DNA of 35,830 nucleotides, taken from the IMG/VR virus record IMGVR_UViG_3300037293_000142, positions 1-35,830 of that record, one strand, 5' to 3'. Of the stretch, positions 1,047-22,600 are shown in pieces; positions within the stretch are counted from its first letter, which is position 1; each line of letters opens with the position of its first letter. This DNA is from a virus. A program made the position numbers and the translations under genes. Below the pieces are notes generated by a model that did not search any database, was not told where the DNA came from, and worked only from the letters and a program-made list of their open reading frames with translations.

Positions 1047-1116
1047 GCAGTTGTTGTTTTGAAATTAGACATATTTAAACTGCTGAAGGACGACAAAGAC
1101 CCCAGTTAAATTTCGG

Positions 1117-3379: not shown

Positions 3380-3404
3380 CTCACTTATTATTAATTACTG
3401 AACA

Positions 3405-6757: not shown

Positions 6758-7044
6758 CTCACATCCACTTTAATATCCCCATTACCATCTATGTACACCG
6801 ACTTAAGCGGTATACCAATGGCCTTTACTTGCTTCTTGATCTCATTCAAGAGTCCATCCTTGGAAGCATCTGGGCTCTTCAGGTAGTTGGTAGCATTTAC
6901 ACCAATTGTCGGGAATGGTCTCCACTCTCCAGGCGCGCTTTGGATCACCAGTTTGATGTCTTGGAAGGTGGAGTCACCTACCACGAAATCATTATCTCTG
7001 ATCATCATATCACCGTCATCATCAAGTAGAAAGTCATTCGCCAT
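6754..7044 (-). CDS. Baseplate wedge protein, GPW/gp25-like
   Basis: A 96-residue protein with the short form typical of the W/gp25 family. It contains the acidic N-terminal DDDGD motif and a D-x-x-L-V-I-Q-S-A-P-G-E-W segment (about residues 27-42), followed by a helical NEIKKQVKAIG part. This family forms the inner wedge that nucleates the sheath. It follows the spike gene with an ATG-TGA overlap, the usual V-W order of P2/Mu baseplates. Confidence 0.7.
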   Translation of the reverse strand: MANDFLLDDDGDMMIRDNDFVVGDSTFQDIKLVIQSAPGEWRPFPTIGVNATNYLKSPDASKDGLLNEIKKQVKAIGIPLKSVYIDGNGDIKVDVR

Positions 7045-7619: not shown

Positions 7620-8191
7620 TCAAAGAGTTCGAGTTCTACAGGTACTATTTCCCTTGCAGTAATGATGAATGGCTGCGTATCACGGTATCCCTCGAGAGCT
7701 GGAAGCATCACACTCTTTATATAGAGTGAATTGATTCCATGATGAAGGAATAGCGATGAGCTTACCACGTCTAGGTAAGTATCTTCCCTGAAGACAGCCA
7801 ATAGCTCTTCTAACTGAGCGTCTGGAAAGTACCCATCTTTGTTCCAAAGCACACCGCGAAACCTGATGTCCGCCTCTTTAGCTCCAGCCATTTCAACTAC
7901 TGAAGCTCCACCGAAAACTTCCGTTTCTGTGACCTTCTTCACGTAGTTAATATCTACCAGCGGATCAAATGGGAAGGTGTAGTTAATAGCAGCTTCATCA
8001 CCGATTGGAACAGTCACAACCTTGATTTCGTCAAAGGGTTGGTTCTGTAAAAGTGCACCAGGAAGTATCTCCGATTTTGAATAGTCGGGCTCGTAAATCA
8101 AAGCAGCTTCCGACTGAGGGATGTAAACACCCGTTCTTATGCCGAAAGCCGCTCCAATTCTTGCTGATATTTCAATGGTGAACTGTGCCAT
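7616..8191 (-). CDS. Phage tail/baseplate protein, DUF6046-like
   Basis: A 191-residue protein between the tail chaperone and the spike. Its N-terminal IGAAFGIRTGVYIPQSEAAL and middle WNKDGYFPDAQLEELLAVF segments resemble a family I associate with Bacteroidota phages (DUF6046), usually found between tube/tape-measure and spike genes. In Mu this slot holds gp43, a DNA circularisation/hub-associated protein. The ATG at 8191 shares its A with the TAA that ends the frameshifted chaperone extension, so it is coupled to that frame. Confidence 0.5.
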   Translation of the reverse strand: MAQFTIEISARIGAAFGIRTGVYIPQSEAALIYEPDYSKSEILPGALLQNQPFDEIKVVTVPIGDEAAINYTFPFDPLVDINYVKKVTETEVFGGASVVEMAGAKEADIRFRGVLWNKDGYFPDAQLEELLAVFREDTYLDVVSSSLFLHHGINSLYIKSVMLPALEGYRDTQPFIITAREIVPVELELFE

Positions 8192-9077
8192 TACTGTTTC
8201 TTGTAAACTATTCCAGGTATGTGATTTTGTTCCATTAACCAGTTTAACTGCTGAACGTTGAGCGACCAGTCTTCTTCGCTCAACGTTTCAGGATCAATCT
8301 TAAAATGCAGTTTGATCAACGCATTAAAGTGATCTACTTCGGTGAGCTCTGAGGTGAGCGCGATAGCTTTTTTACCCTGCCCTGGCCTCCAACCAGAACC
8401 TCACTTAATGAGTCTACAAAACTCATGAGGTATTTTCTTTCTGTCTTAATGCGTTCATCGCCTTTGATCCAGATCGTATTAACCAACTTTCTAGCAGCAT
8501 CCAAAGGCACTCTGTCCGCTTTGCGCAAGTACTCATTCAAAAGCCCTGGAGAAGGGTGCTTCACCACGCCCTCGATGTACTCTTCATAAGTCTCATCCAA
8601 TGGCACTTCAACCCTGTGAACCACTTGATCAGGAAGCTCTTTAATAGCAGAGTTCTTTTCAACGATCCTGCCTTGGCCACCGACTAGTACTTCTGTCAGC
8701 TGACCCATGAAAGCCATTCGGTATTCGAGACTATCCTTAATTGCAGAATCACCGCCAAGCCAAATAGTATTGATCAGAATTTTACCAGCCCCAATAGGGT
8801 CACGGTCTGACTTGCGTAGGTAGTTGTTAAGTACCCCATCAGCTGGCTCACGAACGTAACCAATAATGTAGTTCTCATAGCTGCCATCCACTGGCACTTC
8901 AAAAGCATGAACTTTCGCTTCGCCATATTGATCCATCCAAGCATCAATGTTTTCCTGCGTAACTGTCACCACCATATGCGTGGTATTTTCGGTTTTTTCC
9001 ATGATAAAAGAGTTTGCTGAATTGAGCCTAGTAGTCAATGTTATGAGCATTAGGCAGATTAGAATTTTGTTTTTCAT
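8191..9077 (-). CDS. Tail assembly chaperone, -1 frameshift product (GT-like)
   Basis: Frameshift form of the tail chaperone. Translation follows the gene that ends at 8334 up to the AAG codon at 8369-8367, slips back one base on A AAA AAG, and continues with GCT at 8367 for 58 codons to TAA at 8193-8191. The extension begins AIALTSELTE, is rich in Trp, Leu and Asp (EEDWSLNVQQLNWL in its middle) and ends in KKQ. It fills 8191-8333, which is otherwise without a gene, and its stop overlaps the next ATG. The product would be 295 residues (270 from the internal start at 9002). Lambda gpG/gpGT and P2 E/E+E' use the same strategy to chaperone the tape measure. The two-frame architecture and heptamer are read directly; frameshifting itself is inferred. 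Confidence 0.75.
8254..8287 (-). repeat. 12-bp perfect hairpin inside chaperone extension
   Basis: AACGTTGAGCGA at 8254-8265 is the exact reverse complement of 8276-8287, with a 10-nt loop. It lies wholly within the 58-codon extension reached by frameshifting. No U-tract follows, so it does not look like a simple terminator. It may affect ribosome pausing or mRNA stability between tail-tube and baseplate genes. Confidence 0.5.
8334..9077 (-). CDS. Tail assembly chaperone, duplicated domain (G-like)
   Basis: A 247-residue protein directly after the tail tube, the position of gpG-type chaperones that coat the tape measure during tail assembly. It consists of two copies of an approximately 84-residue domain (about 56-139 and 153-236), each running from VH..EVP through LRK.DR.P and NTIW to SEVLVGGQGR or TEVLVGGQGR. 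The reading frame ends ten codons after the slippery site. The first 25 residues look like a signal peptide (KNK then a hydrophobic stretch), which is odd for a cytoplasmic chaperone. The ATG at 9002 (MEKTENT) is the more credible start and would leave an 85-bp spacer after the tube gene. Confidence 0.72.
   Translation of the reverse strand: MKNKILICLMLITLTTRLNSANSFIMEKTENTTHMVVTVTQENIDAWMDQYGEAKVHAFEVPVDGSYENYIIGYVREPADGVLNNYLRKSDRDPIGAGKILINTIWLGGDSAIKDSLEYRMAFMGQLTEVLVGGQGRIVEKNSAIKELPDQVVHRVEVPLDETYEEYIEGVVKHPSPGLLNEYLRKADRVPLDAARKLVNTIWIKGDERIKTERKYLMSFVDSLSEVLVGGQGRVKKLSRSPQSSPK
8367..8373 (-). other. -1 frameshift slippery heptamer A AAA AAG (tail chaperone)
   Basis: On the minus strand the sequence reads A AAA AAG, with AAA at 8372-8370 and AAG at 8369-8367 in the zero frame, which is the X XXY YYZ pattern for tandem -1 slippage. 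The -1 frame is open for 58 codons downstream and the zero frame stops after ten codons. A small GCTC/GAGC hairpin follows closely. A perfect 12-bp hairpin lies about 80 nt further on (8254-8287), probably too far to be a classical stimulator. Confidence 0.72.
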
Positions 9078-9087
9078 AATGATTTAT

Positions 9088-9519
9088 TTAAAGGGGTTGG
9101 TTAAAATCGATTTTGGAGCAAATGCCCGGACACTCTTGGTTAATCTCCATATCGCCCTCCTGAGCTCCACGTCCCCAACGCGTCCATTCGAAGTCATATA
9201 TGATATCTTGAAGAGCTACATCACCATTGTCATATATAATAGGGATGTCAAAGGGCTTCAGATCAGTCGGATCGAAACCTTTACCAAATCGATTCTGAAT
9301 AGCCAATTCGATTTGAATACATTCTTCCATTCCAAGAACCATTCGAACATTATCGTAAGTCTTGCGCCCTCGACCTCTTCGATTAGGACTGTTGCCATTG
9401 CCGTAACCATTCTTTTTTTCGTGGTTAACTTCATAGGTTATCTCGGTAATGAAGATTGGAATATTACCCAAAATCACTACATCAATATCCTTCCACCCAT
9501 ATGCTGTTTTTATTGCCAT
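9088..9519 (-). CDS. Putative tail tube protein
   Basis: A 143-residue protein immediately downstream of the sheath, separated by only two bases, and upstream of the frameshifting chaperone. That is the canonical sheath-tube-chaperone order of contractile phages, in which the tube protein polymerises as stacked hexameric rings. A basic, Gly/Arg-rich loop (NGYGNGNSPNRRGRGR, about residues 37-52) interrupts an otherwise beta-type sequence. Identification rests mainly on order and size, since no motif is diagnostic. Confidence 0.6.
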   Translation of the reverse strand: MAIKTAYGWKDIDVVILGNIPIFITEITYEVNHEKKNGYGNGNSPNRRGRGRKTYDNVRMVLGMEECIQIELAIQNRFGKGFDPTDLKPFDIPIIYDNGDVALQDIIYDFEWTRWGRGAQEGDMEINQECPGICSKIDFNQPL

Positions 9520-9521
9520 GA

Positions 9522-10778
9522 TTACAAGTTTCTTACAAGTCCTACTTTCACTTTGATTGATTGCGCACTGCCATAAGGCACGGCTTTAACTGCCATATCG
9601 AGCGTTTCACTCGGAGGCAATAGGTTCGAATTCTTATCGACTAAAACTTCGCGGCCAGATACCTCACCAGCTAAGTCCTGGTCAATTTTCCTTTCGGCTC
9701 TAAGTTTGAAATCGGCCATCACTGCGAGTTGTAACTTACCCGTGTTTGGGTCAACCAGCTGAGGGGATTTAACACGTCCGATCAAGGCCGAGAAGGCACT
9801 TAATACCACCTTATCCATTGTTCTACCAAATCGGATATAAGCCTCGTTCATGTTACCTTCCACGTCTACTTCAATAGGCGTACAAGCATGATCATTGTTC
9901 CATCTGAAGCCGTCAACTCTTGGGTACTTCTGTGCGAATATGTAGCCCTTTTGGTCTATTAAATCCCAATTCTCCTGAGCGGCCATAGCATCAGTATGAT
10001 TGCTGAAGCCAGCGTTTAACCATCGGCCTGATCCTGCATCAGTTAGATTGAATTGCTCCACCCACCCAATATTCTCATGAACATTAGCCAAAGCCACAGT
10101 TCCGAGTGCAGTGCCTACAGCAGCATACTTATTCAGTAATGCATCCTTAGCGGCATAGTCAAAATCTTGAGCGACTACTACATGCACGTTCGGTGCTTTC
10201 ACATCATCGATGTCTCTTAAGTCACCAGCAGCTGCACCATTAGGCGTGAAGGATCGGCCTTCAATGATCACCCTCGTAGGGTACATCTTATCGAATGCCC
10301 AATCTACCAATGCCTGGGCTTTAGGAATGGCGTTCCAAACGTCCTCATCCATGCCGTCAAGTATGGTTGGCGCATATTCATCATCAGGATTCAAAGCGAT
10401 TCCAAACTGGAATGCCTTTCCTTCAGAGTCATTAATGAACTTCTTACCTATCGTTCCGGCTGGATCAACCATGTCCTCCAGAGTAGTACCCTGGGCAACT
10501 CCCATAATATAGAATGGTACATTGCTATCAAGTCCTACCTCATGGTAGAACTCACTGATATGATGGTGCAGCGCAACCTTATTAGTAAGGTCATAAGCTG
10601 CATCGATACCAAGTGTGATTTCAGCATCTGCAATGCTGTTCACCTTGTAAACAGTATTCAGTGCGAACTTATCCGCAACAACCAAAGCAGCTGCAATGAT
10701 ACCGGAGACCCGAAGGTCTCCGATAACTGCTACCACATTGGGCGTTTCTTTGCTTATTAATACTCCCTTTGTAGACAT
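9522..10778 (-). CDS. Contractile tail sheath protein (DUF2586-like)
   Basis: A 418-residue sheath protein, the subunit that forms the contracting outer tail. The N-terminus (VLISKETPNVVAVIGD) and the central region with repeated alpha/beta segments agree with the DUF2586-type sheath of Mu-like phages. The C-terminal domain contains the FGRTMDKVVLSAFSALIGRVKSPQ and DFKLRAERKIDQDLAGEVSG segments expected near the sheath linker arms. The ATG overlaps the previous stop (TAATG). It establishes that the phage is myovirus-like. Confidence 0.8.
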   Translation of the reverse strand: MSTKGVLISKETPNVVAVIGDLRVSGIIAAALVVADKFALNTVYKVNSIADAEITLGIDAAYDLTNKVALHHHISEFYHEVGLDSNVPFYIMGVAQGTTLEDMVDPAGTIGKKFINDSEGKAFQFGIALNPDDEYAPTILDGMDEDVWNAIPKAQALVDWAFDKMYPTRVIIEGRSFTPNGAAAGDLRDIDDVKAPNVHVVVAQDFDYAAKDALLNKYAAVGTALGTVALANVHENIGWVEQFNLTDAGSGRWLNAGFSNHTDAMAAQENWDLIDQKGYIFAQKYPRVDGFRWNNDHACTPIEVDVEGNMNEAYIRFGRTMDKVVLSAFSALIGRVKSPQLVDPNTGKLQLAVMADFKLRAERKIDQDLAGEVSGREVLVDKNSNLLPPSETLDMAVKAVPYGSAQSIKVKVGLVRNL

Positions 10779-11218
10779 TATTCAGGCTTTTGAGGGTTAT
10801 CATTTTGCTTCAGGTGTTCTTCTACCTTGGCCAGTAGATCACCTTCATTGTCCTTGGATGTATATTTCACGCCTTCGCGATCCATCCAGGCTTTGATCTC
10901 GTCTACCTTCCAGTCCTTTACAGGAGTGCCTTCAGGTATCACAACTTGGCCTTCCTCCTTTTTAGGAGTAGTCTTTTTTGACTTGGTAGGAACTGCCTTT
11001 TTCACTGGAGGTTTTTGGCTTCCAGCTTCTGACTTCTGACTTCTGGCTCCTACCTCGTAGTAGTCAGCACGTTTGTGCGTTTGGAGATCATTCTCGTTAC
11101 CGAAAACAGCCTCTAAAGCATTTTTCTTTTCCTTGAAGTATCGGTTCGATCCTATGATCTGATAAACCTCTTCTTGCTTTGGGTTCTTGTCGAATATTAG
11201 TTTAACTCTGGTATCCAT
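10778..11218 (-). CDS. Hypothetical protein with C-terminal HeH/LEM-like domain
   Basis: A 146-residue protein from the ATG at 11218, chosen because it lies one base after the stop of the preceding gene; longer readings begin with TTG. It has a basic N-terminal part, a Lys/Pro/Ser-rich linker (residues about 55-95), and a C-terminal helix-extended loop-helix resembling HeH/LEM (VKDWKVDEIKAWMDREGVKY, near residues 107-126). Such domains bind DNA or protein. The linker is coded by near-tandem copies of AGAAGTC, giving SQKSEAGSQKP, a replication-slippage-prone stretch. It sits between the lysis genes and the sheath, where a head completion or connector protein would be expected, but this is not shown. 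Confidence 0.5.
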   Translation of the reverse strand: MDTRVKLIFDKNPKQEEVYQIIGSNRYFKEKKNALEAVFGNENDLQTHKRADYYEVGARSQKSEAGSQKPPVKKAVPTKSKKTTPKKEEGQVVIPEGTPVKDWKVDEIKAWMDREGVKYTSKDNEGDLLAKVEEHLKQNDNPQKPE

Positions 11219-11219
11219 C

Positions 11220-11474
11220 TTAGTAGCTTTGGAGTTCATCAATTGTTACTTCGCCTGATCCTTTTAGGAATAGATATACCATGATCAGGAATACAATCAG
11301 ACGGATGGTCTGATTTACTAACTTCGCATAGTCCACTTGGCCTTCGCCACCGTCTTTCGAAGTAATGTTTTCTACTAGATCACCCACAACGGGTATCTTC
11401 TTCACACCGGACTTCAGGACGAATCCCAATACCTTGCCGATGCCAGTTTCTTTGAATGGTTTCTTGTTACTCAT
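11220..11474 (-). CDS. Small membrane protein, possible lysis factor
   Basis: An 84-residue protein with a basic amphipathic first half (KETGIGKVLGFVLKSGVKKI) and one strong transmembrane segment at about residues 56-75 (IRLIVFLIMVYLFLKG). It overlaps the endolysin gene through ATGAGTAA, the same eight-base coupling seen in the early operon. Membrane topology plus endolysin and holin neighbours suggest a second holin, antiholin or spanin-like role. The TTG at 11480 is a possible but less likely start. Confidence 0.55.
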   Translation of the reverse strand: MSNKKPFKETGIGKVLGFVLKSGVKKIPVVGDLVENITSKDGGEGQVDYAKLVNQTIRLIVFLIMVYLFLKGSGEVTIDELQSY

Positions 11475-11949
11475 TTTCAAATGGTCTATAATGAACCCTG
11501 TTGTTCTTGTCTCGATAAGCCCTTAGAACTTGCCTTCTGTTTTGGCCAAGTCTCCTTTTGCTCACATGCACCCATGCCGGGTTTTCATCAGTGCCGAATT
11601 CCCAAATCAGTTGATCAAAGTGAAGGTGATCTAGGATGAAGTAGAAGATGTCTTTGTTCGTCACTCCATTGGTATTATACACATCAGCATCAATATCAAT
11701 GGCACATCCATTGCAATGATCTGAGGTTTCACTTCCGCCTAGAGCCGCGTTCAAAACCTTTGATCTGAAGAAGGATGAGATGAATAGGATACCACCAACA
11801 AACTGTCTCACTAGGTCAAATACGGTTTTGCCTACAAATTGCATGTTCCTAAGTTGCTCCTCATTTGGGGTGTTATTAATCCCAAGTCTTTCAGCCGCCT
11901 GGCTCTTCACTGCCTCCTGGTATGATATGTGATTACTGATATCCTTCAT
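11467..11949 (-). CDS. Endolysin, M15-family metallopeptidase
   Basis: A 160-residue zinc peptidase of the M15 (D-Ala-D-Ala carboxypeptidase-like) type, which cleaves peptidoglycan stem peptides during lysis. The zinc site is visible as SDH (H78), HxxxxxxD with D85 in CAIDID, and H128 in AWVHVS. The region between carries the family's FFRS segment (about residues 60-63). There is no signal peptide, so release to the periplasm would depend on the adjacent holin-like membrane proteins. It overlaps the upstream holin gene by four bases (ATGA type). Confidence 0.85.
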   Translation of the reverse strand: MKDISNHISYQEAVKSQAAERLGINNTPNEEQLRNMQFVGKTVFDLVRQFVGGILFISSFFRSKVLNAALGGSETSDHCNGCAIDIDADVYNTNGVTNKDIFYFILDHLHFDQLIWEFGTDENPAWVHVSKRRLGQNRRQVLRAYRDKNNRVHYRPFENE

Positions 11950-12143
11950 TCTTCTTCTTTTTTTTTGGTAGATCGTTTAACCAGGTAACCACCAAGAGCT
12001 CCAGCCACACCACAAGCGAAGGCAGTACCTACTGCTATCAAGAACTCAATTTGTGGATTGGTAAGTCCTACGACTACCAATCCACTTCCAGTGCCGAATA
12101 TGGCTCCAATGAGTTCTTCTATATGTTTGTGCGCTGAATTCAC
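11946..12143 (-). CDS. Putative holin
   Basis: A 65-residue protein with two predicted membrane segments (about residues 10-28 and 31-54, rich in Gly/Ala/Val) and a highly charged C-terminus ending KKKEEE, the usual profile of a class II holin. It lies directly upstream of the M15 endolysin and overlaps it. It would form the membrane hole that releases the endolysin. The call rests on topology and context. Confidence 0.65.
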   Translation of the reverse strand: MNSAHKHIEELIGAIFGTGSGLVVVGLTNPQIEFLIAVGTAFACGVAGALGGYLVKRSTKKKEEE

Positions 12144-12145
12144 GT

Positions 12146-13099
12146 TTAGGCTCCTACAGCTTCAACAATAGAAACAATGCCTCTTTCGTCTTTGCGGTAT
12201 TTATCACCGCCAGCAAGGCAATTTGCAGACATTAGAGTCCCCTGAGCTTCTGCATTGTCGAGGTCTATAAAAACTTTTGCCGACCCTTTAGCTCTGGTGA
12301 CAAATTCATGATTCCACATGATTATGCCCAGATTGTTTGCAGCCCCGCCAGCAAAAGTTACCCCTTCGTCTGTTCCATCATCTTCTGGAACCAACTCCTG
12401 AATCACAGGGGTTGCAGCATTACTATAATGCACACCTAGTGATACTGACCAAACTGTCGCGCCTAATATTGAACCAATTCTACCGGTAGGTACAGCTTTT
12501 TGATCAACCCAATCAGCCGTGGTGAATTCCTCTATTTTAAGCATATCAATAAACATACTTGAAGGCACCATGATGTCTGTCGGAACTAAATCTTGATCCA
12601 AGAAAATTTGAAGACCAGCTAAGAAATCATCATAGATAGGCTTCTTTCTTGTACCCGTAGCCGCTTTGCCTGCCGCTAATCTATTAGCTCCACTCGTTCT
12701 TGCAATATGCGCAGGAAGGGTTGCAGCCCATTGAGTTTTCATGAAGTGACCTATCTGTTCATTAATGCTCTTTTGATGTTCATCAATCGCATTTGATCGC
12801 ATCTCTGGGTTTGATAATGATTCCTCTGTGAAAATCAATAATTCAGGGTCAGACGAAAATTCATGAATGTTGTAATTACCAGCTACAAGCGTTCTTCGGG
12901 TAGCTTCAATTTTATTCGAAACTTTGTTACGTCTCACTTTCGGCTTACCACCTACATTAGATCGCTCGACCGATTTTCCATTCACGTATTTCGAATCATC
13001 TCGTGATCGACTCATCCAAGAATCCTCTGGGAAAATACTCTTTACCAAATCCTTTGCGTAAAGGACTTTCGCGGTTTCTATACTAGTTTGTATATCCAT
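12146..13099 (-). CDS. Major capsid protein
   Basis: A 317-residue protein directly downstream of the protease/scaffold gene, the Mu I-T order. The basic N-terminal arm (about residues 30-75) and the later beta/alpha regions with DIMVPSSMFIDML and GRIGSILGATVWSV match the HK97-type P and A domains in outline. No separate N-terminal pro-peptide can be defined by eye. As the only protein of suitable size behind the protease, it is the best capsid candidate. Confidence 0.75.
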   Translation of the reverse strand: MDIQTSIETAKVLYAKDLVKSIFPEDSWMSRSRDDSKYVNGKSVERSNVGGKPKVRRNKVSNKIEATRRTLVAGNYNIHEFSSDPELLIFTEESLSNPEMRSNAIDEHQKSINEQIGHFMKTQWAATLPAHIARTSGANRLAAGKAATGTRKKPIYDDFLAGLQIFLDQDLVPTDIMVPSSMFIDMLKIEEFTTADWVDQKAVPTGRIGSILGATVWSVSLGVHYSNAATPVIQELVPEDDGTDEGVTFAGGAANNLGIIMWNHEFVTRAKGSAKVFIDLDNAEAQGTLMSANCLAGGDKYRKDERGIVSIVEAVGA

Positions 13100-13105
13100 C
13101 TTAGA

Positions 13106-13600
13106 TTAATATTTGGCTAACAATTCTTTGAAAGTGTCAGGGTCATCATCGGCCAGCCCCAATAAACCTTTGGGGTCTTCCTTTTCCCATTTTGCGTAAT
13201 CCCAGTCCTTACGGGCAGGATCATTACCTACTTTTTTAGGCTTCCTTCTCAGGCTTCCTTCCAAGTCATCTACATCACCAGCATCGGCCAGCATGTCATC
13301 CAACAGGGCAGACACGTCATCCCTGCCATTCTTTTCGGCCAGTTTTTCGTAGTGTGCACCTTGCTTGGCAGTGATTACACCTTTTTTAATGCAAGCTTTC
13401 AACTTGTCATCAAACTCGGTTTCACCTTGAGCGTCCAACTGCGCCTGGAGACTGTCAGCCAAATCGGCTTTTTTCTTCAGCTTTTTCAATTCAGTTTTAA
13501 ACTGACCGATAAGCTCAGAATCCTCCATTGAAGCAGTTACTTCGTCCCCGAATGTGATTCCCACACTAGCGAACATTAAAAGCAATTGTTCTTTCTTCAT
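13106..13600 (-). CDS. Possible nested scaffold protein (Mu gpZ-like)
   Basis: In-frame internal start within the protease gene. ATG at 13600 follows CCAATCAAAA, an AT-rich context typical of Bacteroidota starts, and would give a 164-residue charged helical protein (KTELKKLKKKADLADSLQAQ in its first third). Mu and lambda both produce scaffolds from such nested starts. The linker before it (GGNPPSNKDQSK) marks a domain boundary. There is no direct evidence for use of this start. Confidence 0.4.
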   Translation of the reverse strand: MKKEQLLLMFASVGITFGDEVTASMEDSELIGQFKTELKKLKKKADLADSLQAQLDAQGETEFDDKLKACIKKGVITAKQGAHYEKLAEKNGRDDVSALLDDMLADAGDVDDLEGSLRRKPKKVGNDPARKDWDYAKWEKEDPKGLLGLADDDPDTFKELLAKY

Positions 13601-14266
13601 TTTTGATTGGTCTTTATTTGATGGAGGATTCCCTCCTTTAATGCGTTCGTCATAATGCGCTACCATCTCCTCGTATGAGGCAGATGCTGGCAGTGATTCT
13701 ATGGGGTTTTCACTGTCATACACTTCGTGGATCAGTCCCTCTTCTAAAGCTTCTTCAGCCGTGAACCAAGTATCCTTACCTTCAGCTAGCCAGTTGTCTT
13801 TAACCCACTGTGCGTCATGCTCTGGATGCTTCCAGGCTATGGCCTCAGCATAAATCCCAGCAAGCGTATTGTTCCACTTTTTTAGCTGGAGGGCATACTC
13901 CAATATCTGATTAGCAGATCCTTTAATTCCACCTTTACCTTGGTGCAGCATAAGCCTGGCATGTGTGGCCATTCTTCTCTTCTTTGCTGCCATTAAAAGT
14001 GCGCTGGCCATACTCGCAGCAATGCCTTCCACATCGATATTGACATCGGACTTGCTGCGTTTAGCACGGTTATACATTTGTATGCCCTCTGTTATGCTTC
14101 CGCCTCCTGAGTGGAGCTTCATGTTGATTACCTTATGCTTGCCTTCCAGTGCCGTCAATTCAGTCGAAAATGACACCGCACTAATATCTCCCCACTTGCC
14201 TATATCGCCAATGAGTTGCCATGTTGCAGCTTCACTTTTCGCTATGATTGTCCACCAGTTTTCCAT
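13106..14266 (-). CDS. Prohead protease-scaffold fusion, ClpP/S49-like (Mu gpI-like)
   Basis: A 386-residue protein with two parts. Residues 1-205 are a ClpP-like serine protease: oxyanion region LHSGGGSITEG (51-61), nucleophile S85 in EGIAASMAS and histidine H108 in LMLHQG. It processes the head during maturation. Residues about 223-386 are charged, helical and coiled-coil-like, as in scaffold domains. An internal ATG at 13600 (MKKEQLLL, after an AT-rich stretch) could start a separate 164-residue scaffold, like Mu gpZ nested in gpI. It is the first gene of the leftward late unit. Confidence 0.85.
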   Translation of the reverse strand: MENWWTIIAKSEAATWQLIGDIGKWGDISAVSFSTELTALEGKHKVINMKLHSGGGSITEGIQMYNRAKRSKSDVNIDVEGIAASMASALLMAAKKRRMATHARLMLHQGKGGIKGSANQILEYALQLKKWNNTLAGIYAEAIAWKHPEHDAQWVKDNWLAEGKDTWFTAEEALEEGLIHEVYDSENPIESLPASASYEEMVAHYDERIKGGNPPSNKDQSKMKKEQLLLMFASVGITFGDEVTASMEDSELIGQFKTELKKLKKKADLADSLQAQLDAQGETEFDDKLKACIKKGVITAKQGAHYEKLAEKNGRDDVSALLDDMLADAGDVDDLEGSLRRKPKKVGNDPARKDWDYAKWEKEDPKGLLGLADDDPDTFKELLAKY

Positions 14267-14393
14267 ATGAGATGCTCAAAGAAACGGTCAACTAAGGCAC
14301 AATAAAAGGGCTAATACCCATAATGAGCCGAGATTTCCCATGATGGCGCGAGAGGTCGCATCATGAGATATTGAGGTTAAAAATGACTAATGC
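14267..14393. promoter_or_regulatory. Divergent late control region with 20-bp iterons
   Basis: This 127-bp gap separates the leftward capsid/tail unit from the rightward terminase/portal unit, so it must hold or lie near both late promoters. It contains three direct repeats with an exact 20-bp period at 14317, 14337 and 14357 (CCCATAATGAGCCGAGATTT, CCCATGATGGCGCGAGAGGT and a more divergent third copy). No good TAnnTTTG box is visible for either direction, which fits activator-dependent late promoters as in Mu (protein C). Confidence 0.55.
14317..14376 (+). repeat. Three 20-bp direct repeats (iterons)
   Basis: Copies start at 14317, 14337 and 14357. The shared core is C-x-CAT-x-ATG followed by GAG or GCG-rich sequence and GAGA. 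A 20-bp period is close to two helical turns, so bound proteins would align on one DNA face. The second and third copies also form an imperfect palindrome (CATGATG...CATCATG). It is probably a binding array for a late activator or for the terminase small subunit encoded just downstream. Confidence 0.6.
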
Positions 14394-14834
14394 ATGGCTG
14401 TTATTTGTGACATGGCATTGTCAACAGAAGCAAAACTTGCACAGGCTGAAGACCTGATAATTAACTCCGATCTAAACTATCAGGAGATATGTGAAATAGT
14501 AGGAGTCTCGGACAGGACACTACGAGACTACAGAGAGAATAGCAATGTTGATCAGCTACGCAAATCGGCTAAAACTACTACTCCCAAAATACTAGTCAAG
14601 CTTACAGATTTACTTCTTCAGGAGATGGATAAGGAGAAACCGGATGCAGATCAAATAGTAAAGTATTCCAAGTCGATTGAATACCTGAAGAACAAAGAAC
14701 TGATCCTCTCTGACTACATCAAGATGTTCAGAAGATTTACGGAATGGCTTTTTGTGAGGAATGCTGAAGCAGCCAAAATGCTCAATGTACACATGAAAGA
14801 TTTTATCCACTTCATAATGCACGGACGTGATTAA
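14394..14834 (+). CDS. Terminase small subunit, HTH
   Basis: A 146-residue protein with an N-terminal helix-turn-helix (NYQEICEIVGVSDRTLRDYR, about residues 31-50), the DNA-recognition module of small terminases that start packaging. The rest is helical and Lys/Glu-rich, with KYSKSIEYLKNKELIL near residues 89-104. It precedes and overlaps the large terminase gene by eight bases. The start at 14394 is kept; the ATG at 14412 (MALSTEAK) would also give a complete HTH protein. The iterons just upstream could be its own binding site. Confidence 0.75.
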   Translation: MAVICDMALSTEAKLAQAEDLIINSDLNYQEICEIVGVSDRTLRDYRENSNVDQLRKSAKTTTPKILVKLTDLLLQEMDKEKPDADQIVKYSKSIEYLKNKELILSDYIKMFRRFTEWLFVRNAEAAKMLNVHMKDFIHFIMHGRD

Positions 14835-16356
14835 AGGTATAACCAATAAGGAGTATGATGATTGGTTGAAGTACTGTGATTATGTGCAAGCTTCCACTTC
14901 ACACAAACTGTATGAAAAAAGGCATGAACGCGAGGAGCGTAAAGCCTACCTTCTGAAGCCTGAAAATTACGGTGAGTTCTTTGAGTACTACTTTGCCAAC
15001 TATTGTAATGATGGCAAAAGCAAGTGTTCTAAACACCAGAGGAAGAATGCGCTTCTACTTCATCAGAATAGAATTATCACCCTAATGCAAATTTGGCACA
15101 GGCGAAGTGCCAAGTCCACGCATGCTAATCTTGGCTACCCAACTCAGCTCATGTTCAATGATGAAATATGGTTTGCTGGAGTAATGGGCTACAACGAACC
15201 AAAAGCTGCAAGGCTATTAAAATCCATTCAGGCAGAACTGAGCAAAAACCAAAAGATCATTAATGACTTTGGGGTTCAATATTCTCACGGTGATTGGGCG
15301 AAGGGTGGTTTTACTACTACCAAAGGAGTAGCATTCGAATCTATGTCTTACGTCCAAGACCCAGCAGGTATGTCGAATGGGCCTCATCGTTTCGACTATT
15401 GGTCAGTTGATGATATTGATAACAGAAAGAAAGCACGTAACAAAGTGCTTACTCAGGAGGCGGTTGACAACATTTTGAACAATGCGAAAGCGGCAATGGA
15501 TAAAGACCGCCAGCGCATGGTCATCAGCAATAACCGAAAGGTGAAGGATGGAATAATAGACACCATCATTGGGGAGATCGGTAAGATGAAGGATACAAAA
15601 ATATCAATGGTGAATGCCGTTGATAAAAAGGATCATTCAACATGGCCAGAGAATTATCCCGATGCCTACTGGAAGCGAATCAAAGCAAACGCTACCTACA
15701 GGAATTGGGAGCGTGAGTACATGAATAATCCGGTTGAAGATGGAAAGCTCTTTTTGCCAGAATACTTGCAATGGATTGATGTATTACCTTATGAAGAGTA
15801 CGATGCTCTAATTCTCTATGGTGATCTTTCTTATACCGACACTGGTGACCTGAAGTCCATGCACCTCATTGGCCAGATTGGAAGGGAAATGCACATCCTT
15901 GAAGCTTTCAACAGACAGACAAGTAATACGGAAGCTGCTAAATGGCTCTACGATCTCTATGAAGATAAGCTTCAGAACTTGGATGTGACCTATATGATTG
16001 AAGCCAACTTTATTCAAGAGATGTTCTTGAACGACTTTGATCAAGAGGGTGAGCTAAGAGGCTACTACCTGAATATCCTTCCTGACAAAAGATCAAAGGG
16101 TAACAAGTTCGATCGCATCGAAAATAACCTATTGCCCTATTTCGTGAGACTTCGAGTATTCCTGAATAAGAAGTTCAAATCACACCCTGATTTTCAAAAA
16201 CTGGTAGACTGCCTTTTGGCATTCCAAAAAGGAAGTGGAGCTCCTGATGATCCGCCCGATTCATTAGAGGGTGGTTTCTATGAACTGGCCAAAAGAGCAG
16301 TCAACAATCTAAGCCGCATAAGGCTAATTAAGCACACCAACAACTTTATTGATTAA
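14827..16356 (+). CDS. Terminase large subunit (Mu gp28-like)
   Basis: A 509-residue packaging motor. The ATPase carries a Walker-A-like HRRSAKST at 91-98 and a Walker B YWSVDDID at 191-198, with the coupling ISNN motif at about 233-236. The C-terminal RNase-H-type nuclease domain shows YGDLSYTDTG (D333) and IEANFIQEM (E392). It pumps DNA into the prohead and cuts it; Mu-like phages use headful packaging from integrated copies. The start is GTG, overlapping the previous stop by eight bases (GTGATTAA). Confidence 0.85.
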   Translation: MIKGITNKEYDDWLKYCDYVQASTSHKLYEKRHEREERKAYLLKPENYGEFFEYYFANYCNDGKSKCSKHQRKNALLLHQNRIITLMQIWHRRSAKSTHANLGYPTQLMFNDEIWFAGVMGYNEPKAARLLKSIQAELSKNQKIINDFGVQYSHGDWAKGGFTTTKGVAFESMSYVQDPAGMSNGPHRFDYWSVDDIDNRKKARNKVLTQEAVDNILNNAKAAMDKDRQRMVISNNRKVKDGIIDTIIGEIGKMKDTKISMVNAVDKKDHSTWPENYPDAYWKRIKANATYRNWEREYMNNPVEDGKLFLPEYLQWIDVLPYEEYDALILYGDLSYTDTGDLKSMHLIGQIGREMHILEAFNRQTSNTEAAKWLYDLYEDKLQNLDVTYMIEANFIQEMFLNDFDQEGELRGYYLNILPDKRSKGNKFDRIENNLLPYFVRLRVFLNKKFKSHPDFQKLVDCLLAFQKGSGAPDDPPDSLEGGFYELAKRAVNNLSRIRLIKHTNNFID

Positions 16357-16852: not shown

Positions 16853-18100
16853 ATGAACGCAATAGACAGAATGGTAGCGAAATACGTTGAGAGCCGAAAG
16901 GGGCTTAAAACGCATCTTTCTAAAAAAGAGCAAGACAAGGCTTTTATCAAGCTCCAACGGCTCACAAAATACCTCTCACGAGTGGAAGTAAAGACTTGGA
17001 GAGATGCCCATCAAGCGGCTATCGACATTGAGAACCCAAGGCGTGATTATGCGATGGACGTTTTCGATGACGCCATGCTAGACCCTCACCTGAAGACAGT
17101 ATGCCAAACAAGAGTATTGAATGTGGTGAACACGCCTGGCGAAGTTTACCAGATCGATAACAATGAGGTAAACGAAGACGCTGCCAAACTCTTCGACCGC
17201 ATGTGGTTCTATGACTTCATTAAGCTAACAGTTGAATCTGTGCTATATGGTTATTCTCCAGTCAAGTTCTATATGGGCGAAGGTAAGGACTTGGCTTGGG
17301 AAGTTAAAAAAGTCAGATGCTTCCACCGTGAGCACTTTGTACCTGAATGGCGCGCCATACGAAAAGACCTATCATCGAATGATCTAGTTTACATCGATGA
17401 ACCACCTTTCAATCGTTTTTATATGATCATCGATACTGGTGATCTTGGCTTATTACTTCCATGCTCACGGTTCACCATTTTCAAAAAGTATGCTGTCAAT
17501 CATTGGAGTAGGTATCAAGATATCTTTGGAATACCAGCCAGAACGGCCAAAACGAACAGCCGTGATGATGCTGTTTGGGATAAGCTCGAGAGCCAATTGA
17601 AGGCAATGGGTAATTCTATGAGTGCTGTATTGCCTGAAGGTACCGACTTTCAAATTCATAGCGATACTTCAGCTGACCCTTACAATGTATTCCTTCAGGC
17701 TGCCAAGTTTGCAGATGAGCAAAACTCTAAGATCATTCTCGGCCAGACCATGACCACAGACAACGGCTCTTCTAAGTCACAGTCGGAGGTGCATGAACGG
17801 ACGGCCAGCAATATTACCAAGGCAGATATTCGCCTAGCTGAACACGTAATCAATGATCAGCTATTCCCTTTCTTAATCGATTGGGGATATCCGCTAGAAG
17901 GTATGGCCTATCGTTTTGACCAAAGCTCTAAGCTGAAACTTGCGGACAGTCAGCTTGAAATTGATACATGGGTTTCTCAACAATTCGACATCGATGAGCA
18001 GTATGTTGAAGAAGTGTATGGTGCTAAAATAGTTGGCCGTAAACAGTTCAATCCTTTTCCTGGACAACCAGCAAAACCAGAGCCTACGGGAAAGCAGTAG
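16853..18100 (+). CDS. Portal protein (DUF935, Mu gp29-like)
   Basis: A 415-residue portal protein, the dodecameric ring through which DNA enters the head. It shows the DUF935 features: an early DPHLKTVCQTRVLNV segment (about 77-91), the LLYG/VLYGYSPVKF region, and a long C-terminal half with GQTMTTDNGSSKSQSEVH (about 298-315). The C-terminus is a proline-rich linker (FNPFPGQPAKPEPTGKQ). The last codons contain an in-register G GGA AAG slippery heptamer at 18088-18094, followed by CAG TAG and a stem-loop, indicating a -1 frameshift into the MuF-like gene. Confidence 0.88.
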   Translation: MNAIDRMVAKYVESRKGLKTHLSKKEQDKAFIKLQRLTKYLSRVEVKTWRDAHQAAIDIENPRRDYAMDVFDDAMLDPHLKTVCQTRVLNVVNTPGEVYQIDNNEVNEDAAKLFDRMWFYDFIKLTVESVLYGYSPVKFYMGEGKDLAWEVKKVRCFHREHFVPEWRAIRKDLSSNDLVYIDEPPFNRFYMIIDTGDLGLLLPCSRFTIFKKYAVNHWSRYQDIFGIPARTAKTNSRDDAVWDKLESQLKAMGNSMSAVLPEGTDFQIHSDTSADPYNVFLQAAKFADEQNSKIILGQTMTTDNGSSKSQSEVHERTASNITKADIRLAEHVINDQLFPFLIDWGYPLEGMAYRFDQSSKLKLADSQLEIDTWVSQQFDIDEQYVEEVYGAKIVGRKQFNPFPGQPAKPEPTGKQ

Positions 18101-19389
18101 CCTCCGTTCAATTCCAAGCCATCCGAACGGAGGACATAACAGCGCAACTGGAAGAGCTCTACTTCAGCCATGATCACCATCATGACCCAGTGGCCAGTAT
18201 TGACAAAGCGAAGACACAGGAAATACGCCAGGCGTTTGATCAGCTGGCCGATGACTTCTATAATAGTCAGGAGATCTCCTCATCATTTGCTAGGCTAGTT
18301 ACCAGTACAGGAAACGCATTATTTGAAGGACTCAGTAAACAGTTCACGGGATATAACCAACCTGATCACGCAGCCATTGCATTCATAAGAGCGAACGTGT
18401 TTGCCTTCTCTGGAGCTAAGTCATTAGTGCAAATGAAAGAGCTTTCAAACTTGGTGACCAATAAGAATGAGATCCGCGTATTTTCCGACTACAAGAAGGA
18501 AGCCCTGAAGATAGACGAAAAGTACAACGTGAGGTACATGGAGGCCGAATTCAACACCGTGGTAGCTACTGGCCAAATGTCAAGAAGGTATTGGGAAGTG
18601 CTCGATGATCAGGACGTATTCCCACTATTGAGATGGGATGCCGTGAATGATGATCGAACCCGTCCGGATCATGCCAGGCTTGACAAAGTAACGCTTCCGG
18701 CTAATGATCCATTTTGGACACGCTACTGGCCACCAATAGACCACAACTGTAGATGTGATGTGCAGCAGATGCGTTCTGGCAGAGTAACGCCAAGAGCCAA
18801 CGCCATTCAAGTGGCCAAGGGCGCGGTTAAACGTAACAGTCCATTCTTTGGTAATGCAGCTGCTGATGGTATGGCCATTAAGAAAGACCACAGCTACTTC
18901 ACCAAAAAGGATTACTCATCGCTGAAGGCCGTGGATTACGGTTTGAAAGATGCGGAAACCATCTATGAAAGGGGTGGATTACCAAGGCTTAACCGATCAC
19001 TAACCGATAAGGATCAATGGAATGATCAGTGGGCAAAGTGGTACAAAGACAATGGTGGTACTGAAGGTAAGTTCACGGTTAAGGATATGCTCGATAGGCC
19101 GATCACCTTTGATGCAAAAGCGCGTGACCACATTAAGAGATACCACCTTGGCGCGGATATCATGGACGTGATCCAGAACCCAGACGAAGTGTACAGCCAA
19201 GACCATCAAGGCAAGCAACGGGCTGGCAAGTTCGGTTATCGATACATCAAGTTCTTTAATGATAAGCCAATGGTAGTAGTGGTAGAACCGGACGGTAAAT
19301 CTTTGAGATTAACAACAACATTTGACCCAGAAGTGGGGCAAGTGGCTAAAGAAAGAAAGGGAGTGCTGCACTATGTGGACAGACTATAA
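16853..19389 (+). CDS. Predicted portal-MuF fusion by -1 frameshift
   Basis: If ribosomes slip at G GGA AAG (18088-18094), portal residues 1-414 are joined to 32 codons (AVASVQFQAI...HHHDP) and then the complete 399-residue MuF-like protein, giving about 845 residues. The 32-codon junction contains no ATG, GTG or TTG, and its frame is open back to about 18040, so the reading frame is maintained without a start. The fusion would be a minor component of the portal ring, tethering the MuF protein by a Pro-rich linker. Permanently fused portal-MuF proteins exist in other phages, but I know of none made by frameshifting. The sequence signal is direct; the product is inferred. Confidence 0.65.
18088..18133 (+). 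other. -1 frameshift site: G GGA AAG plus stem-loop
   Basis: Zero-frame codons are ACG GGA AAG CAG TAG. G GGA AAG at 18088-18094 is the heptamer used by lambda G-T. A 6-nt spacer (CAGTAG, containing the stop) is followed by a perfect 9-bp stem, CCTCCGTTC at 18101-18109 with GAACGGAGG at 18125-18133, and a 15-nt loop. This is the textbook arrangement of slippery site, spacer and stimulatory hairpin. The -1 frame continues open to 19389. Confidence 0.72.
18190..19389 (+). CDS. MuF-like minor head protein with C-terminal BECR nuclease-like domain
   Basis: Minor head protein (Mu gp30/SPP1 gp7 type) involved in head morphogenesis and carried with the genome. The MuF core is clear: RWDAVNDDRTRPDHARLD (148-165) and the cysteine motif DHNCRCDV (184-191). 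The C-terminal 100 residues (about 300-399) resemble the phage BECR/EndoU-RelE-like nuclease domains of MuF toxins, with RDHIKRYH (312-319), PDEVY (331-335), YIKFF and MVVVVE strands and a final TTTF. The first usable start is GTG at 18190, but the frame is open through 32 further codons from the portal frameshift site, so it may also be made as a fusion. Nuclease activity is inferred from the fold only. Confidence 0.72.
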   Translation: MASIDKAKTQEIRQAFDQLADDFYNSQEISSSFARLVTSTGNALFEGLSKQFTGYNQPDHAAIAFIRANVFAFSGAKSLVQMKELSNLVTNKNEIRVFSDYKKEALKIDEKYNVRYMEAEFNTVVATGQMSRRYWEVLDDQDVFPLLRWDAVNDDRTRPDHARLDKVTLPANDPFWTRYWPPIDHNCRCDVQQMRSGRVTPRANAIQVAKGAVKRNSPFFGNAAADGMAIKKDHSYFTKKDYSSLKAVDYGLKDAETIYERGGLPRLNRSLTDKDQWNDQWAKWYKDNGGTEGKFTVKDMLDRPITFDAKARDHIKRYHLGADIMDVIQNPDEVYSQDHQGKQRAGKFGYRYIKFFNDKPMVVVVEPDGKSLRLTTTFDPEVGQVAKERKGVLHYVDRL

Positions 19390-19495
19390 AAAAAGCCCAC
19401 CAGAGAACCTAGCGGCTATCACACGGGTGAGGCGTGGTGCTAGTGCTCCTGATGAGCTTGTACAAATATACGGATTTTTAAAATGTAATTTATGA
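19373..19495 (+). CDS. Small protein between MuF and tape measure
   Basis: A 40-residue gene (MWTDYKKSPPENLAAITRVR at the start, ending FLKCNL). It starts 17 bp inside the MuF gene and its TGA overlaps the tape measure ATG as ATGA, a translational-coupling arrangement that argues for a real gene filling the 102-bp gap. It is basic, Pro-containing and has no membrane segment. No family is recognised. Because it directly follows a MuF gene with a nuclease-like tail, an immunity or assembly role could be considered, but there is no direct support. Confidence 0.5.
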   Translation: MWTDYKKSPPENLAAITRVRRGASAPDELVQIYGFLKCNL

Positions 19496-21471
19496 GAGGT
19501 TTAAGAATTGGGATACTCTACGAATTGAAAGACAAACTTTCAGGAGGACTGAACCGCATAAAAGAGCGCATGGGGCAAGTGAACGAACTGCAACAAAGTG
19601 CGCGATTGAAGACAAAGGAATACTTTAATTCATTCAGTAAAGGAGCTAAAGAGGCCATGCCATCGCTTGATAATTTCAAGCTGAAGAACATGGAATTGTT
19701 TGATGCAATTCAGGACCAGGTACCATTCCTTGGCAGGCTCGGAGGACTGCTCAAGAATCCTTATGTACTGGCCATTGGTGCAGCAGTTGCGCTGGGTACG
19801 GCCACTTTCAAGCTTGGCCAAGAAATGTTCCGAGTGTCTGAACAAATAGAACTGAACCAAAAAACGGTTAAAGCTACCTTCGATATTACCGGAAGGGAAC
19901 TTGACGCTACAACCTCCAAGGTAATGGCTTTAAGCAAGGTCATGAACATTGAAGTGAAAGATTTGAGCCTTGCAGCCAACGCCATGCACCGCGAGTATAA
20001 GGATGCTGGAGTAGGCATTGAAGATTCCTTGAACAACATCAAGCTTGGTTTGATCGCTACCAACGGCACGCTCGACCTTCAAGAGATCAAGGAGTATGCA
20101 AGCCAAATGCGTGGAGCTGGTGTTAGTGCTGAAGGCTTAACGTCAATATTGGTAATGAGCAAAAAGGAGGGTGTATTCTCAGATAAAGCAATCGATGCTG
20201 TAAAAGAATTCAGCATTAGGTTGAAGGAAATGACACCAATGGCAGCAAAGGCATTACAAGGCATTGGCTTAAGTGGTGATGAAATACTGAGGCAACTGGA
20301 TAGCGGTGAGAAAAAGGTATTTGATGTGCTCAGGGATGTTTCAGCAGCAATGGGCGAAGTGAACACCCAAGCCCGACAAACCGCAATAGCCGATCTCTTT
20401 GGTGGCCCAGGTGAGGACTTGGGAGAAAGAATGCTCCTAAAGTTTAAGGACATGAATCTCAACCTCAAAGATATGGTTGATTTATCAGATCCTCTTATTG
20501 CAAGAACAGTGAAACGGCTAGAGCTTGAAGAGAAGATTGCAAGTGCTCAAGGAGATAGTGCTAAGTTCTTCAATAACATGAGGCATAGTTACGAAGACTT
20601 CACTGATAGTATTCGATTGGGCTTTTTTGATGTTATGAGTGGCCTTTTCGGTTCAGACAACAGGGCTGGAAGGTTGTTTGACGAGCAAAAAAACAAAGTC
20701 TTTGGTTTAGAAAAAGCACTAAACCCATTACTTAAAGAGTACGCTGATGTAGAAGAGGCGATCAAGAAAGGTGCAGATAGGCAGTCGGAGTTAAATACAC
20801 TGACAAACAAGATTCTCGAGATACTACCAAACGCAGCGACTGGTTTTGATAGGTTCGGAAAGGCCACTGGCCTTTCCATAGACAAAGCAAAAGAGCTACT
20901 TGGTGTAGAAAAGGAACTCTTTAAGCTTAGAAACCAAGACCTGCTACAGAGCAATGCTAATGAAATTCAAAAGCTTGAAATGCGTACCAATAACATCACG
21001 AACTCATTAAACAGGGGTTACGATGTAGAATATTACATGCAGGGTAAGACCAAAAAGGACTTTGATTTTAAGCAAAGGTTAGCAGAGCAGTCAGCAGCCA
21101 ATTCAGAACTATATAGTAAGCTGAAGCTTCAAAAGACGTTAGGCGGAAAACTAACACCTGAGCAAGAAAATCTTCTTGGAATGTTTGCAGGAAGAGAAGC
21201 CTTTGAAGCGCATAATAAGGCTACAAACCCTAGTGCTGAAAACCCAGATGGAACTGTAACCCCTGATGGATCAGGAGGCTCTTCTATATCGGCAATGGTA
21301 GGCAGTGCAGTGCAACAAAAGAGCCTCACGGTACATATTCAGAACCTAAATGAGGGTGGAATAACTGTGAACACCAAAAACCTGAAGGAAGGCGGTACAG
21401 AGGTAGAAGAAAAGTTTACCGAAATGCTCATAAACGCCATCAGAAACATGGAAAGGGGTGTAGGCCAATGA
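19492..21471 (+). CDS. Tail tape measure protein
   Basis: A 659-residue protein that sets tail length and is ejected with DNA. The N-terminal part has coiled-coil helices (KDKLSGGLNRIKERMGQVNEL) and a hydrophobic segment at about residues 87-105 (KNPYVLAIGAAVALGTATF). Residues about 115-330 form the TP901-type core (EVKDLSLAANAMHREYKDAG, ASQMRGAGVSAEGL). The C-terminus is Gly/Ser-rich, then polar. Unusually it lies on the strand opposite to the sheath, tube and chaperone genes. By the usual empirical relation of about 0.15 nm per residue, a tail near 100 nm would be expected. Confidence 0.85.
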   Translation: MRGLRIGILYELKDKLSGGLNRIKERMGQVNELQQSARLKTKEYFNSFSKGAKEAMPSLDNFKLKNMELFDAIQDQVPFLGRLGGLLKNPYVLAIGAAVALGTATFKLGQEMFRVSEQIELNQKTVKATFDITGRELDATTSKVMALSKVMNIEVKDLSLAANAMHREYKDAGVGIEDSLNNIKLGLIATNGTLDLQEIKEYASQMRGAGVSAEGLTSILVMSKKEGVFSDKAIDAVKEFSIRLKEMTPMAAKALQGIGLSGDEILRQLDSGEKKVFDVLRDVSAAMGEVNTQARQTAIADLFGGPGEDLGERMLLKFKDMNLNLKDMVDLSDPLIARTVKRLELEEKIASAQGDSAKFFNNMRHSYEDFTDSIRLGFFDVMSGLFGSDNRAGRLFDEQKNKVFGLEKALNPLLKEYADVEEAIKKGADRQSELNTLTNKILEILPNAATGFDRFGKATGLSIDKAKELLGVEKELFKLRNQDLLQSNANEIQKLEMRTNNITNSLNRGYDVEYYMQGKTKKDFDFKQRLAEQSAANSELYSKLKLQKTLGGKLTPEQENLLGMFAGREAFEAHNKATNPSAENPDGTVTPDGSGGSSISAMVGSAVQQKSLTVHIQNLNEGGITVNTKNLKEGGTEVEEKFTEMLINAIRNMERGVGQ

Positions 21472-22022
21472 GCTACAGAGAGTCATTTAGGGTTCAGCAG
21501 GCATTGAACCGAGTATACAAACGTACCCCTTCATTAGTGGGCGGTACAGCTGTAGGCTTCTATAAAGATCGATTTCGGTTTCAGGCTTGGCAAGATGAAA
21601 CGCGTGAGGCATGGCCAGAACGAAGAGGTAAAGACAAAAACAAGAAACGAAGGCGATTGCTCACGAAAACGGGAAGGCTCAAACGATCCATCAGAGTGGT
21701 GTCGAAAGGTAGAAACCATGTGTTTGTCGGCACTGATGTTCCTTACGCTCAGGCGCACAATGAAGGCTTTAAAGGCAAGGTGAATCAAAATGTTTCTGGA
21801 CATACGGTAAAGGAACATAAGCGCAGGTCACATACCAGAGATGGCCGTAGAGTCAAGGCTCAGGTAGTGCGATCGCACCGGAAGAAATCCTTCACCAGAA
21901 CAATTGATCAAAATATTGAAAAACGCCAATTCATGGGTAAATCTACCTTTCTAAACAGGAGGATGGAAAGGGTGTTGGAGTTTGAAATCAACAAGGAATT
22001 GAGATTCTTAAAGAGTATATAA
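21468..22022 (+). CDS. Virion morphogenesis/tail completion protein (Mu G, P2 gpS-like)
   Basis: A 184-residue, strongly basic protein of the phage virion morphogenesis family. It shows the family segments LLTKTGRLKRSIRV (about 64-77) and VFVGTDVPYAQAHNEG (about 85-100). It completes the tail-head junction. A basic loop (KGKDKNKKRRR, about 54-62) and an Arg/Lys-rich insertion (about 115-140) may bind DNA. It is coupled to the tape measure by ATGA and to the next gene by TAATG. Confidence 0.8.
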   Translation: MSYRESFRVQQALNRVYKRTPSLVGGTAVGFYKDRFRFQAWQDETREAWPERRGKDKNKKRRRLLTKTGRLKRSIRVVSKGRNHVFVGTDVPYAQAHNEGFKGKVNQNVSGHTVKEHKRRSHTRDGRRVKAQVVRSHRKKSFTRTIDQNIEKRQFMGKSTFLNRRMERVLEFEINKELRFLKSI

Positions 22023-22600
22023 TGGACGAAATATATCTAGCAATATCAGACGAGCTCTTGAGTGTAGCTGCTAAAAACTACATGGAGGGATTAGGTTTAA
22101 AGCCTATAAAGCATGTGGCACTGTTCAATAATCAGTATCGATACGAAAAGGAAGAAAACGGCTATTTTCTGCCAGCCGTGTTCATCGAGTTTCCCGGTGC
22201 ATTATTCCGACACAAAGGGCGCAAGGTGGACGCTGTGGAAGATAGGGTAAGAATCCACATCGAGCAATCAAACTATGCTGACAGCGCGGCTAACAGCCAA
22301 AACAGGGCAAAGGCTATGGTGGTACTCAAAACCATTAGAGCCATTAGCACGGTATTGCTATCAATTGAATCGGAATTATTCGGAAGCTTTTACGCTGTGT
22401 CCAGGGAACTGGACTCTGATCATGGTAATGCTCCGGTGCATATCTTAGAATTTCAATTCCAGTATACTGATGACTCGACCGATAAATACAAAGATTACGT
22501 CAAGTCTGATCCTGAAAATACCAAGCTGGAGGTAAGCAAGCAGCTGGTTGAAAAACTAGAACCTGAAGATCAGGAGGGTGAGAATCCTTATTCAATTTAA
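22022..22600 (+). CDS. Putative tail terminator (Mu gp37-like)
   Basis: A 192-residue protein at the end of the rightward late unit, following gpG. Length, alpha/beta pattern (FLPAVFIEFPGALFRHKG and the HILEFQFQYTDD strand) and order match the Mu gp37/lambda gpU-type tail terminator, which caps the tube. The acidic Glu-rich C-terminus (KLEPEDQEGENPYSI) is longer than needed. The call is by order and fold impression. Confidence 0.55.
   Translation: MDEIYLAISDELLSVAAKNYMEGLGLKPIKHVALFNNQYRYEKEENGYFLPAVFIEFPGALFRHKGRKVDAVEDRVRIHIEQSNYADSAANSQNRAKAMVVLKTIRAISTVLLSIESELFGSFYAVSRELDSDHGNAPVHILEFQFQYTDDSTDKYKDYVKSDPENTKLEVSKQLVEKLEPEDQEGENPYSI

Follow-up and report, generated by a model that had tools for sequence, protein, structure and literature searches.

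A predicted programmed -1 frameshift site joining portal and MuF in Mu-like phages of Bacteroidota

Background

Phage portals are rings of twelve-fold symmetry, with the C-terminal parts directed towards the inside of the head. In SPP1, one to two copies of the MuF protein gp7 are bound to the portal (PMC5576092); gp7 is encoded by a separate gene and binds the portal protein gp6 non-covalently. In Microbacterium phages EA3, EA5, EA8 and EB, portal and MuF form one chain as a result of a genomic in-frame fusion, with no frameshift reported (PMC7302621). MuF polymorphic toxins, including Bxa of a Bacteroides prophage, combine MuF with variable C-terminal toxin domains; in the respective papers MuF is a gene of its own and frameshifting is unmentioned (PMC5576092, PMC11699363). 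Here we consider the junction of the portal and MuF genes of a Mu-like phage, IMG/VR virus record IMGVR_UViG_3300037293_000142 (positions 1 to 35,830; this whole 35.8-kb stretch is called the window below). A predicted programmed -1 frameshift site at 18088-18133 would place portal and MuF, the latter with a toxin-type C-terminal domain, in one chain.

The original prediction, made from the window sequence, stated that fused portal-MuF genes exist and that no frameshift-made version was known. The literature covered agrees with this. Portal-MuF gene fusions have been described (PMC7302621), frameshifts are known in other phage genes, and no frameshift joining portal and MuF was found in a full-text collection that lacks most subscription papers and preprints; priority is unproven.

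The candidate frameshift element

The portal gene (16853-18100; this and all features of the locus are on the plus strand) encodes a Mu gp29-like protein of 415 residues in the zero frame. It belongs to the Mu-type portals by its match to Portal_Mu PF06074 (E 1.6e-66; 225 bits, gathering score 23.9) and to PHROG 113, portal protein. Its 3' end reads CCT ACG GGA AAG CAG TAG. The slippery heptamer G_GGA_AAG (18088-18094) is in the portal register. The zero-frame stop TAG (18098-18100) comes one codon later, within the 6-nt spacer CAGTAG, whose length is inside the 5-9 nt range for downstream stimulatory structures. The spacer is followed by a predicted stimulatory stem-loop (18101-18133; arms 18101-18109 and 18125-18133, 15-nt loop). 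Its nine base pairs are perfect, its energy is -14.9 kcal/mol (z = -3.8), and none of 200 shuffled sequences folded equally well. GGGAAAG occurs once in the whole window, compared with about five occurrences in dinucleotide shuffles, and this is the only site in the window that unites an in-register heptamer near the end of an open reading frame (ORF), such a hairpin and a long -1 extension.

The -1 frame extends uninterrupted from 18043 to 19386 with the stop at 19387-19389, and its first ATG, GTG or TTG is the GTG at 18190. Slippage would add 431 residues, encoded by 18094-19386 plus the stop, to portal residues 1-414; the computed product has 845 residues and 97.3 kDa. The features proposed originally (the heptamer in register, the perfect stem six nucleotides downstream, a frame open from about 18040 to 19389 lacking a start before 18190, a fusion of about 845 residues) were all reproduced. 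The layout of the element is exactly that of known -1 sites. It has the sequence properties of a programmed -1 site, namely register, structure, a start-less open -1 frame and, as described below, conservation beyond chance with a covarying stem.

The nearest relative of the window is L001 (portal 54%, MuF about 51% identical). Its portal gene ends with GCC CCA AAG CAA TAG. A perfect stem of 10-11 bp (CCCTGGGATC-tgatatc-GATCCCAGGG) comes next, 5-6 nt from the heptamer, and is unrelated in sequence to the stem of the window. The register, the stop position and the stem spacing are retained, whereas the heptamer (C_CCA_AAG in L001) and the stem have changed. MuF of L001 is in the -1 frame, and its first start is only at GTG 3043. 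The N-terminal MuF segment of the window (18094-18189), which has no ATG, GTG or TTG and would be accessible by slippage only, contains the motif HDHHHDPVAS, located largely upstream of GTG 18190. It matches HDHDHPTAS of L001, which precedes GTG 3043. No close kin of the window other than L001 and L002 were found in the searches made, and the MuF alignment of the window gave no matches in a genome scan.

Conservation in related phages

Loci were collected from phage records, viral and genome contigs, and searches of Bacteroidota genomes; the portals clustered at 85% identity form 131 clusters. In 81 of them MuF is in the -1 frame and an in-register heptamer is found at the portal end, most often T_TTT_TTC followed by 6 nt and a GC-rich covarying stem. 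Several forms recur. In Prevotella, Paraprevotella, Muribaculaceae and kin, T_TTT_TTC is followed by one codon, the stop and immediately a GC-rich stem. In the hankyphage-like form, T_TTT_TTC, 6 nt and a stem are observed, and the stop is located 42-51 nt after the heptamer start. Further forms contain A_AAT_TTT with a stem, A_AAA_AAG, G_GGA_AAG, or poly-A (Flavobacterium phage fF4, Winogradskyella phage Peternella). T_TTT_TTC, A_AAT_TTT and A_AAA_AAG occupy the same position as the heptamer of the window, and stems of other sequence occur at the same spacing.

The -1 type has no conserved MuF start codon: the first start may be anywhere from before the portal stop to 654 nt after it. MuF frames that lack a start for 336-654 nt are still coding, as differences between L158 and L160 are distributed 9/6/27 by codon position. 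In the Elizabethkingia phage TCUEAP3 (L045, 3628-3907) the public annotation begins MuF 275 nt after the portal stop, since there is no earlier start codon, and in Peternella (L041, 3760-3862) 99 nt after it. Such late annotated starts are as expected if a frameshift reaches the true N-terminus. The comparison of homologues suggested in the original prediction therefore gave a retained -1 frame and in-register heptamer, usually with a stem, and unconserved MuF starts. The pattern that it had named as evidence to the contrary, a conserved MuF start with neither slippery site nor stem, was sought and is not the pattern of this clade; the reverse holds.

These data bear on the alternative that MuF is a separate product of re-initiation after the portal stop, at an internal codon that would be either GTG 18190 or a non-AUG start such as ATA 18136 behind GGAGG. 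The window does contain the GTG, as well as GGAGG at 18129-18133 in the 3' arm of the stem, and in 24 of the 30 clusters without the element MuF is truly a gene of its own, with ATG at the portal stop. However, a start at GTG 18190 would remove residues conserved with L001. Initiation behind GGAGG was dropped as a candidate, as L001 has no GGAGG at this place. In addition to the scatter of first starts, only 6 of the 81 clusters have an ATG near the portal stop, and the heptamer, the stem, the register and the reversed-polarity genes described below would all be left unexplained. Separate synthesis of MuF is thus very unlikely.

The -1 frame alone is no evidence of slippage, since it is also common for MuF behind the Neisseria/Haemophilus-type Mu portals (L016-L035), the negative control, where it results from an ATGA overlap and there is no heptamer. 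L066, considered as a +1 case, was not counted as evidence: its portal frame stops early, just upstream.

Portal bodies were used as the background (141 heptamers, 8 with a hairpin, in 26,302 codons). The -1-frame junctions of 60 clusters contain 72 in-register heptamers where 4.1 are expected, and 45 combinations of heptamer and hairpin where 0.23 are expected. Junctions with MuF in another frame (16 clusters) contain one heptamer, with 0.55 expected. The Poisson significance of these counts is overstated because the clusters are related yet treated as independent; the diversity of heptamers and stems is unaffected by this. Two adjacent phenylalanines at the site are encoded by T TTT TTC in 38 of 38 cases, and elsewhere in the same portals in 1 of 21 (Fisher 8e-15). 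Among 21 distinct sequences of one form, 90% of the cells of the 8-bp stem are paired, and 20 cells are altered on both sides, compared with 6.5 in shuffles (0/500). Sliding one arm by one base makes the pairing collapse. For the final tally, AAATTTC and a few other heptamers were added to the accepted list, a slight widening that affected one cluster. In a hold-out of 47 further clusters from two orders, drawn after the pattern had been described, 30 belong to the -1 type and 9 are reversed; genes are separate in 6 and plainly fused in 2, in agreement with the main sample. Given the family-wide statistics, the window element is not a chance occurrence.

Slippage of RNA polymerase on homopolymer runs might also produce the second frame. 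Runs of nine A or nine T cause bacterial RNA polymerase to slip (PMC5009743), and at least nine A are present at the junction in L006, L041 and L157-L160. However, runs of this kind are missing from the window, L001 and most relatives (GGGAAAG, CCCAAAG, AAATTTT, TTTTTTC), and a stem conserved about 6 nt downstream points to the ribosome and not to the polymerase. This explanation is highly improbable.

Outside the main clade, a distinct Bacteroidota lineage carries A_AAA_AAG (L157-L160) or A_AAA_AAA (L248-L249) at the portal end and MuF without a start codon for 147-654 nt. The same solution apparently arose independently here, and the second frame is possibly produced by transcriptional slippage.

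Reversed polarity in fused genes

Twenty clusters have portal and MuF fused in frame. In 15 of them the linker contains a heptamer at which slippage would lead to a stop 0-30 codons later and thus to portal alone. In the linkers of fused genes, 22 heptamers are followed by a -1 stop no more than 30 codons away (2.7 expected), and 8 of such heptamers have a stem (0.1 expected). In Porphyromonas phage010a (L007), L044 and L182, the linker contains T_TTT_TTC, 6 nt and the stem GCCCCG..CGGGGC, and the slipped frame stops after 18-30 codons. In L147, L239 and L240, A_AAT_TTT is followed by AAT A, so that the slipped frame reaches TAA immediately. In L213 and L246, A_AAA_AAG is followed by CCT GA or CCT AG, with the slipped-frame stop one codon on. 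Sister pairs with the same heptamer and opposite polarity include L044/L235 and L239/L145.

The portal tree has 125 rows and was built by a quick search, so its deep forks are uncertain. A clade of 106 (SH-aLRT 100) comprises 75 members of the -1 type, 15 reversed, 11 with separate genes and 5 plain fused; outside it, genes are separate in 17 of 19. This tree requires the polarity to have changed at least 12 times. The normal and the slipped product thus appear to have exchanged roles about a dozen times with the signal retained. This retention argues that portal alone and portal-MuF are both needed.

As some relatives are in-frame fusions, one could suspect that a single portal-MuF gene was split by an indel, either through decay or as an error of sequencing or assembly. 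Nevertheless, isolates, prophages and metagenomes all contributed to the 81 clusters that share the frame relation and the element, and the stems show compensating changes. The same frame relation is conserved in independent records, and the probability of an artefact or decay is practically negligible.

The reversed genes also bear on a variant that is compatible with slippage: the fusion may mainly supply MuF, later cut from the portal by a protease, and then finished virions would contain no mixed rings. Head proteins of phages are often processed. The window contains a putative ClpP-like protease gene (13106-14266), assigned by sequence and place. However, the repeated in-frame fusions hold the two proteins together, and the reversed genes retain a route to portal alone that cleavage would make needless, which counts against this variant. 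We consider it rather unlikely.

The MuF gene and flanking genes

The gene immediately 3' of the portal gene belongs to the MuF superfamily: Phage_Mu_F PF04233 was found at 18544-18762 (P0002 residues 168-240; E 3.1e-10; 41 bits, cut-off 29.6). It is followed by a C-terminal nuclease-like domain PBECR2 (PF18810) at 19078-19374 (P0002 residues 346-444; E 1e-11; 45.5 bits, cut-off 27.1), a toxin-type domain of predicted activity as in the MuF polymorphic toxins. In line with these, the C-termini of 49 surveyed MuFs contain CdiA_C (8), PBECR2 (7), LPD3 (5) and Gln_amidase (2). An ORF of 57 residues with a TTG start (19322-19495) overlaps with the last part of MuF and the beginning of the tape-measure gene. 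It may be a small immunity-type gene or a chance frame; L001 has no equivalent on that strand.

By visual assignment, the structural module (243-16356 and 19492-22600) is divided between the strands. Head, sheath/tube and baseplate genes are mostly on the minus strand, and terminase, portal, MuF and tape-measure genes on the plus strand. The protein encoded at 8334-9077 is internally duplicated, its two halves being similar (VHAFEVPVDGSYENYI / VHRVEVPLDETYEEYI). At the end of a separate ORF the -1 frame continues for 143 nt beyond the stop; this looks like the usual tail-chaperone frameshift of the G/GT type.

Discussion

The element at 18088-18133 is very probably a programmed -1 ribosomal frameshift site yielding both portal and portal-MuF, whose slip rate would set their ratio in a mixed ring. 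Some ribosomes would decode G_GGA_AAG CAG TAG normally and make the 415-residue portal. Others, paused at the stem six nucleotides downstream, would slip back one base on the heptamer and make the 845-residue fusion. Both kinds of subunits could then co-assemble in the twelve-fold ring, and the slip rate would fix the number of MuF copies that hang from it into the head, each with its nuclease-like domain. These copies would probably be few; the original prediction had MuF on a minority of the portal subunits. In the reversed relatives normal decoding would give the fusion, and slippage with an early stop would give portal alone.

Several observations weigh against this interpretation. A strong perfect stem is absent in 26 of the 81 -1 clusters (the search covered perfect stems and missed bulged or pseudoknotted structures). 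Several of these clusters are A-rich with possibly chance heptamers; in AT-rich genomes some of the A-rich heptamers may be due to chance. In the six clusters with ATG near the portal stop separate synthesis of MuF is possible. Five fused clusters have no linker heptamer (L174, L179, L180, L205, L223), and either MuF is present on all their subunits or portal alone is made in another way. Together with the 11 members of the clade having separate genes, they imply that the mechanism is dispensable in some lineages. Finally, it speaks for slippage that G_GGA_AAG and C_CCA_AAG are among the highly shift-prone heptamers in E. coli (PMC5009743), but this is known for E. coli ribosomes and may not hold for the host of the window. 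The shift-proneness and the reversed polarity inside already fused genes are the two points that go beyond the original prediction.

For the major Bacteroidota clade of Mu-like phages, we think it fairly likely that the portal ring is mixed by rule, that the ratio set by frameshifting is what is selected, rather than the polarity, and that the MuF cargo, including toxin-type domains, is thereby metered per virion. Portal_Mu is present in 44 of 395 sampled Bacteroidota genomes, only part of them of the frameshift type. A covalent fusion set by frameshifting would explain directly how so few MuF proteins come to be recruited by a twelve-fold portal in a widespread group of phages, and would make the stoichiometry testable through one silent mutation. 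The MuF genes of these phages, toxin-type ones included, would then be mis-annotated at the N-terminus. The set of loci is also a rare natural series in which one frameshift signal has repeatedly reversed its polarity.

The best known phage analogue is the -1 frameshift producing the tail chaperones gpG and gpGT of lambda, whose slippery site is reportedly also GGGAAAG. The same heptamer is slippery in this system of TP901-1 (PMC4493119). However, the lambda products are absent from virions, whereas the predicted products here are a component of the portal ring and a head MuF protein, and the stem is strong and conserved. A frameshift-extended C-terminus on a share of a virion subunit is reported for the major head protein of phage A2 and for SPP1 gp17.1* (PMC5009743, PMC6316719); these are other proteins, and the SPP1 shift is +1. 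The closest parallel to the swaps of polarity is dnaX, where tau and gamma are produced by a heptamer and a stem, and both polarities are known in different bacteria (PMC5009743), as recurs in portal-MuF. The proteins are unrelated, and the longer portal-MuF product is usually the slipped one. Reversal of polarity in dnaX is easy if the efficiency is near one half (PMC5009743), and therefore the slip rate at the portal-MuF junction may be high rather than low.
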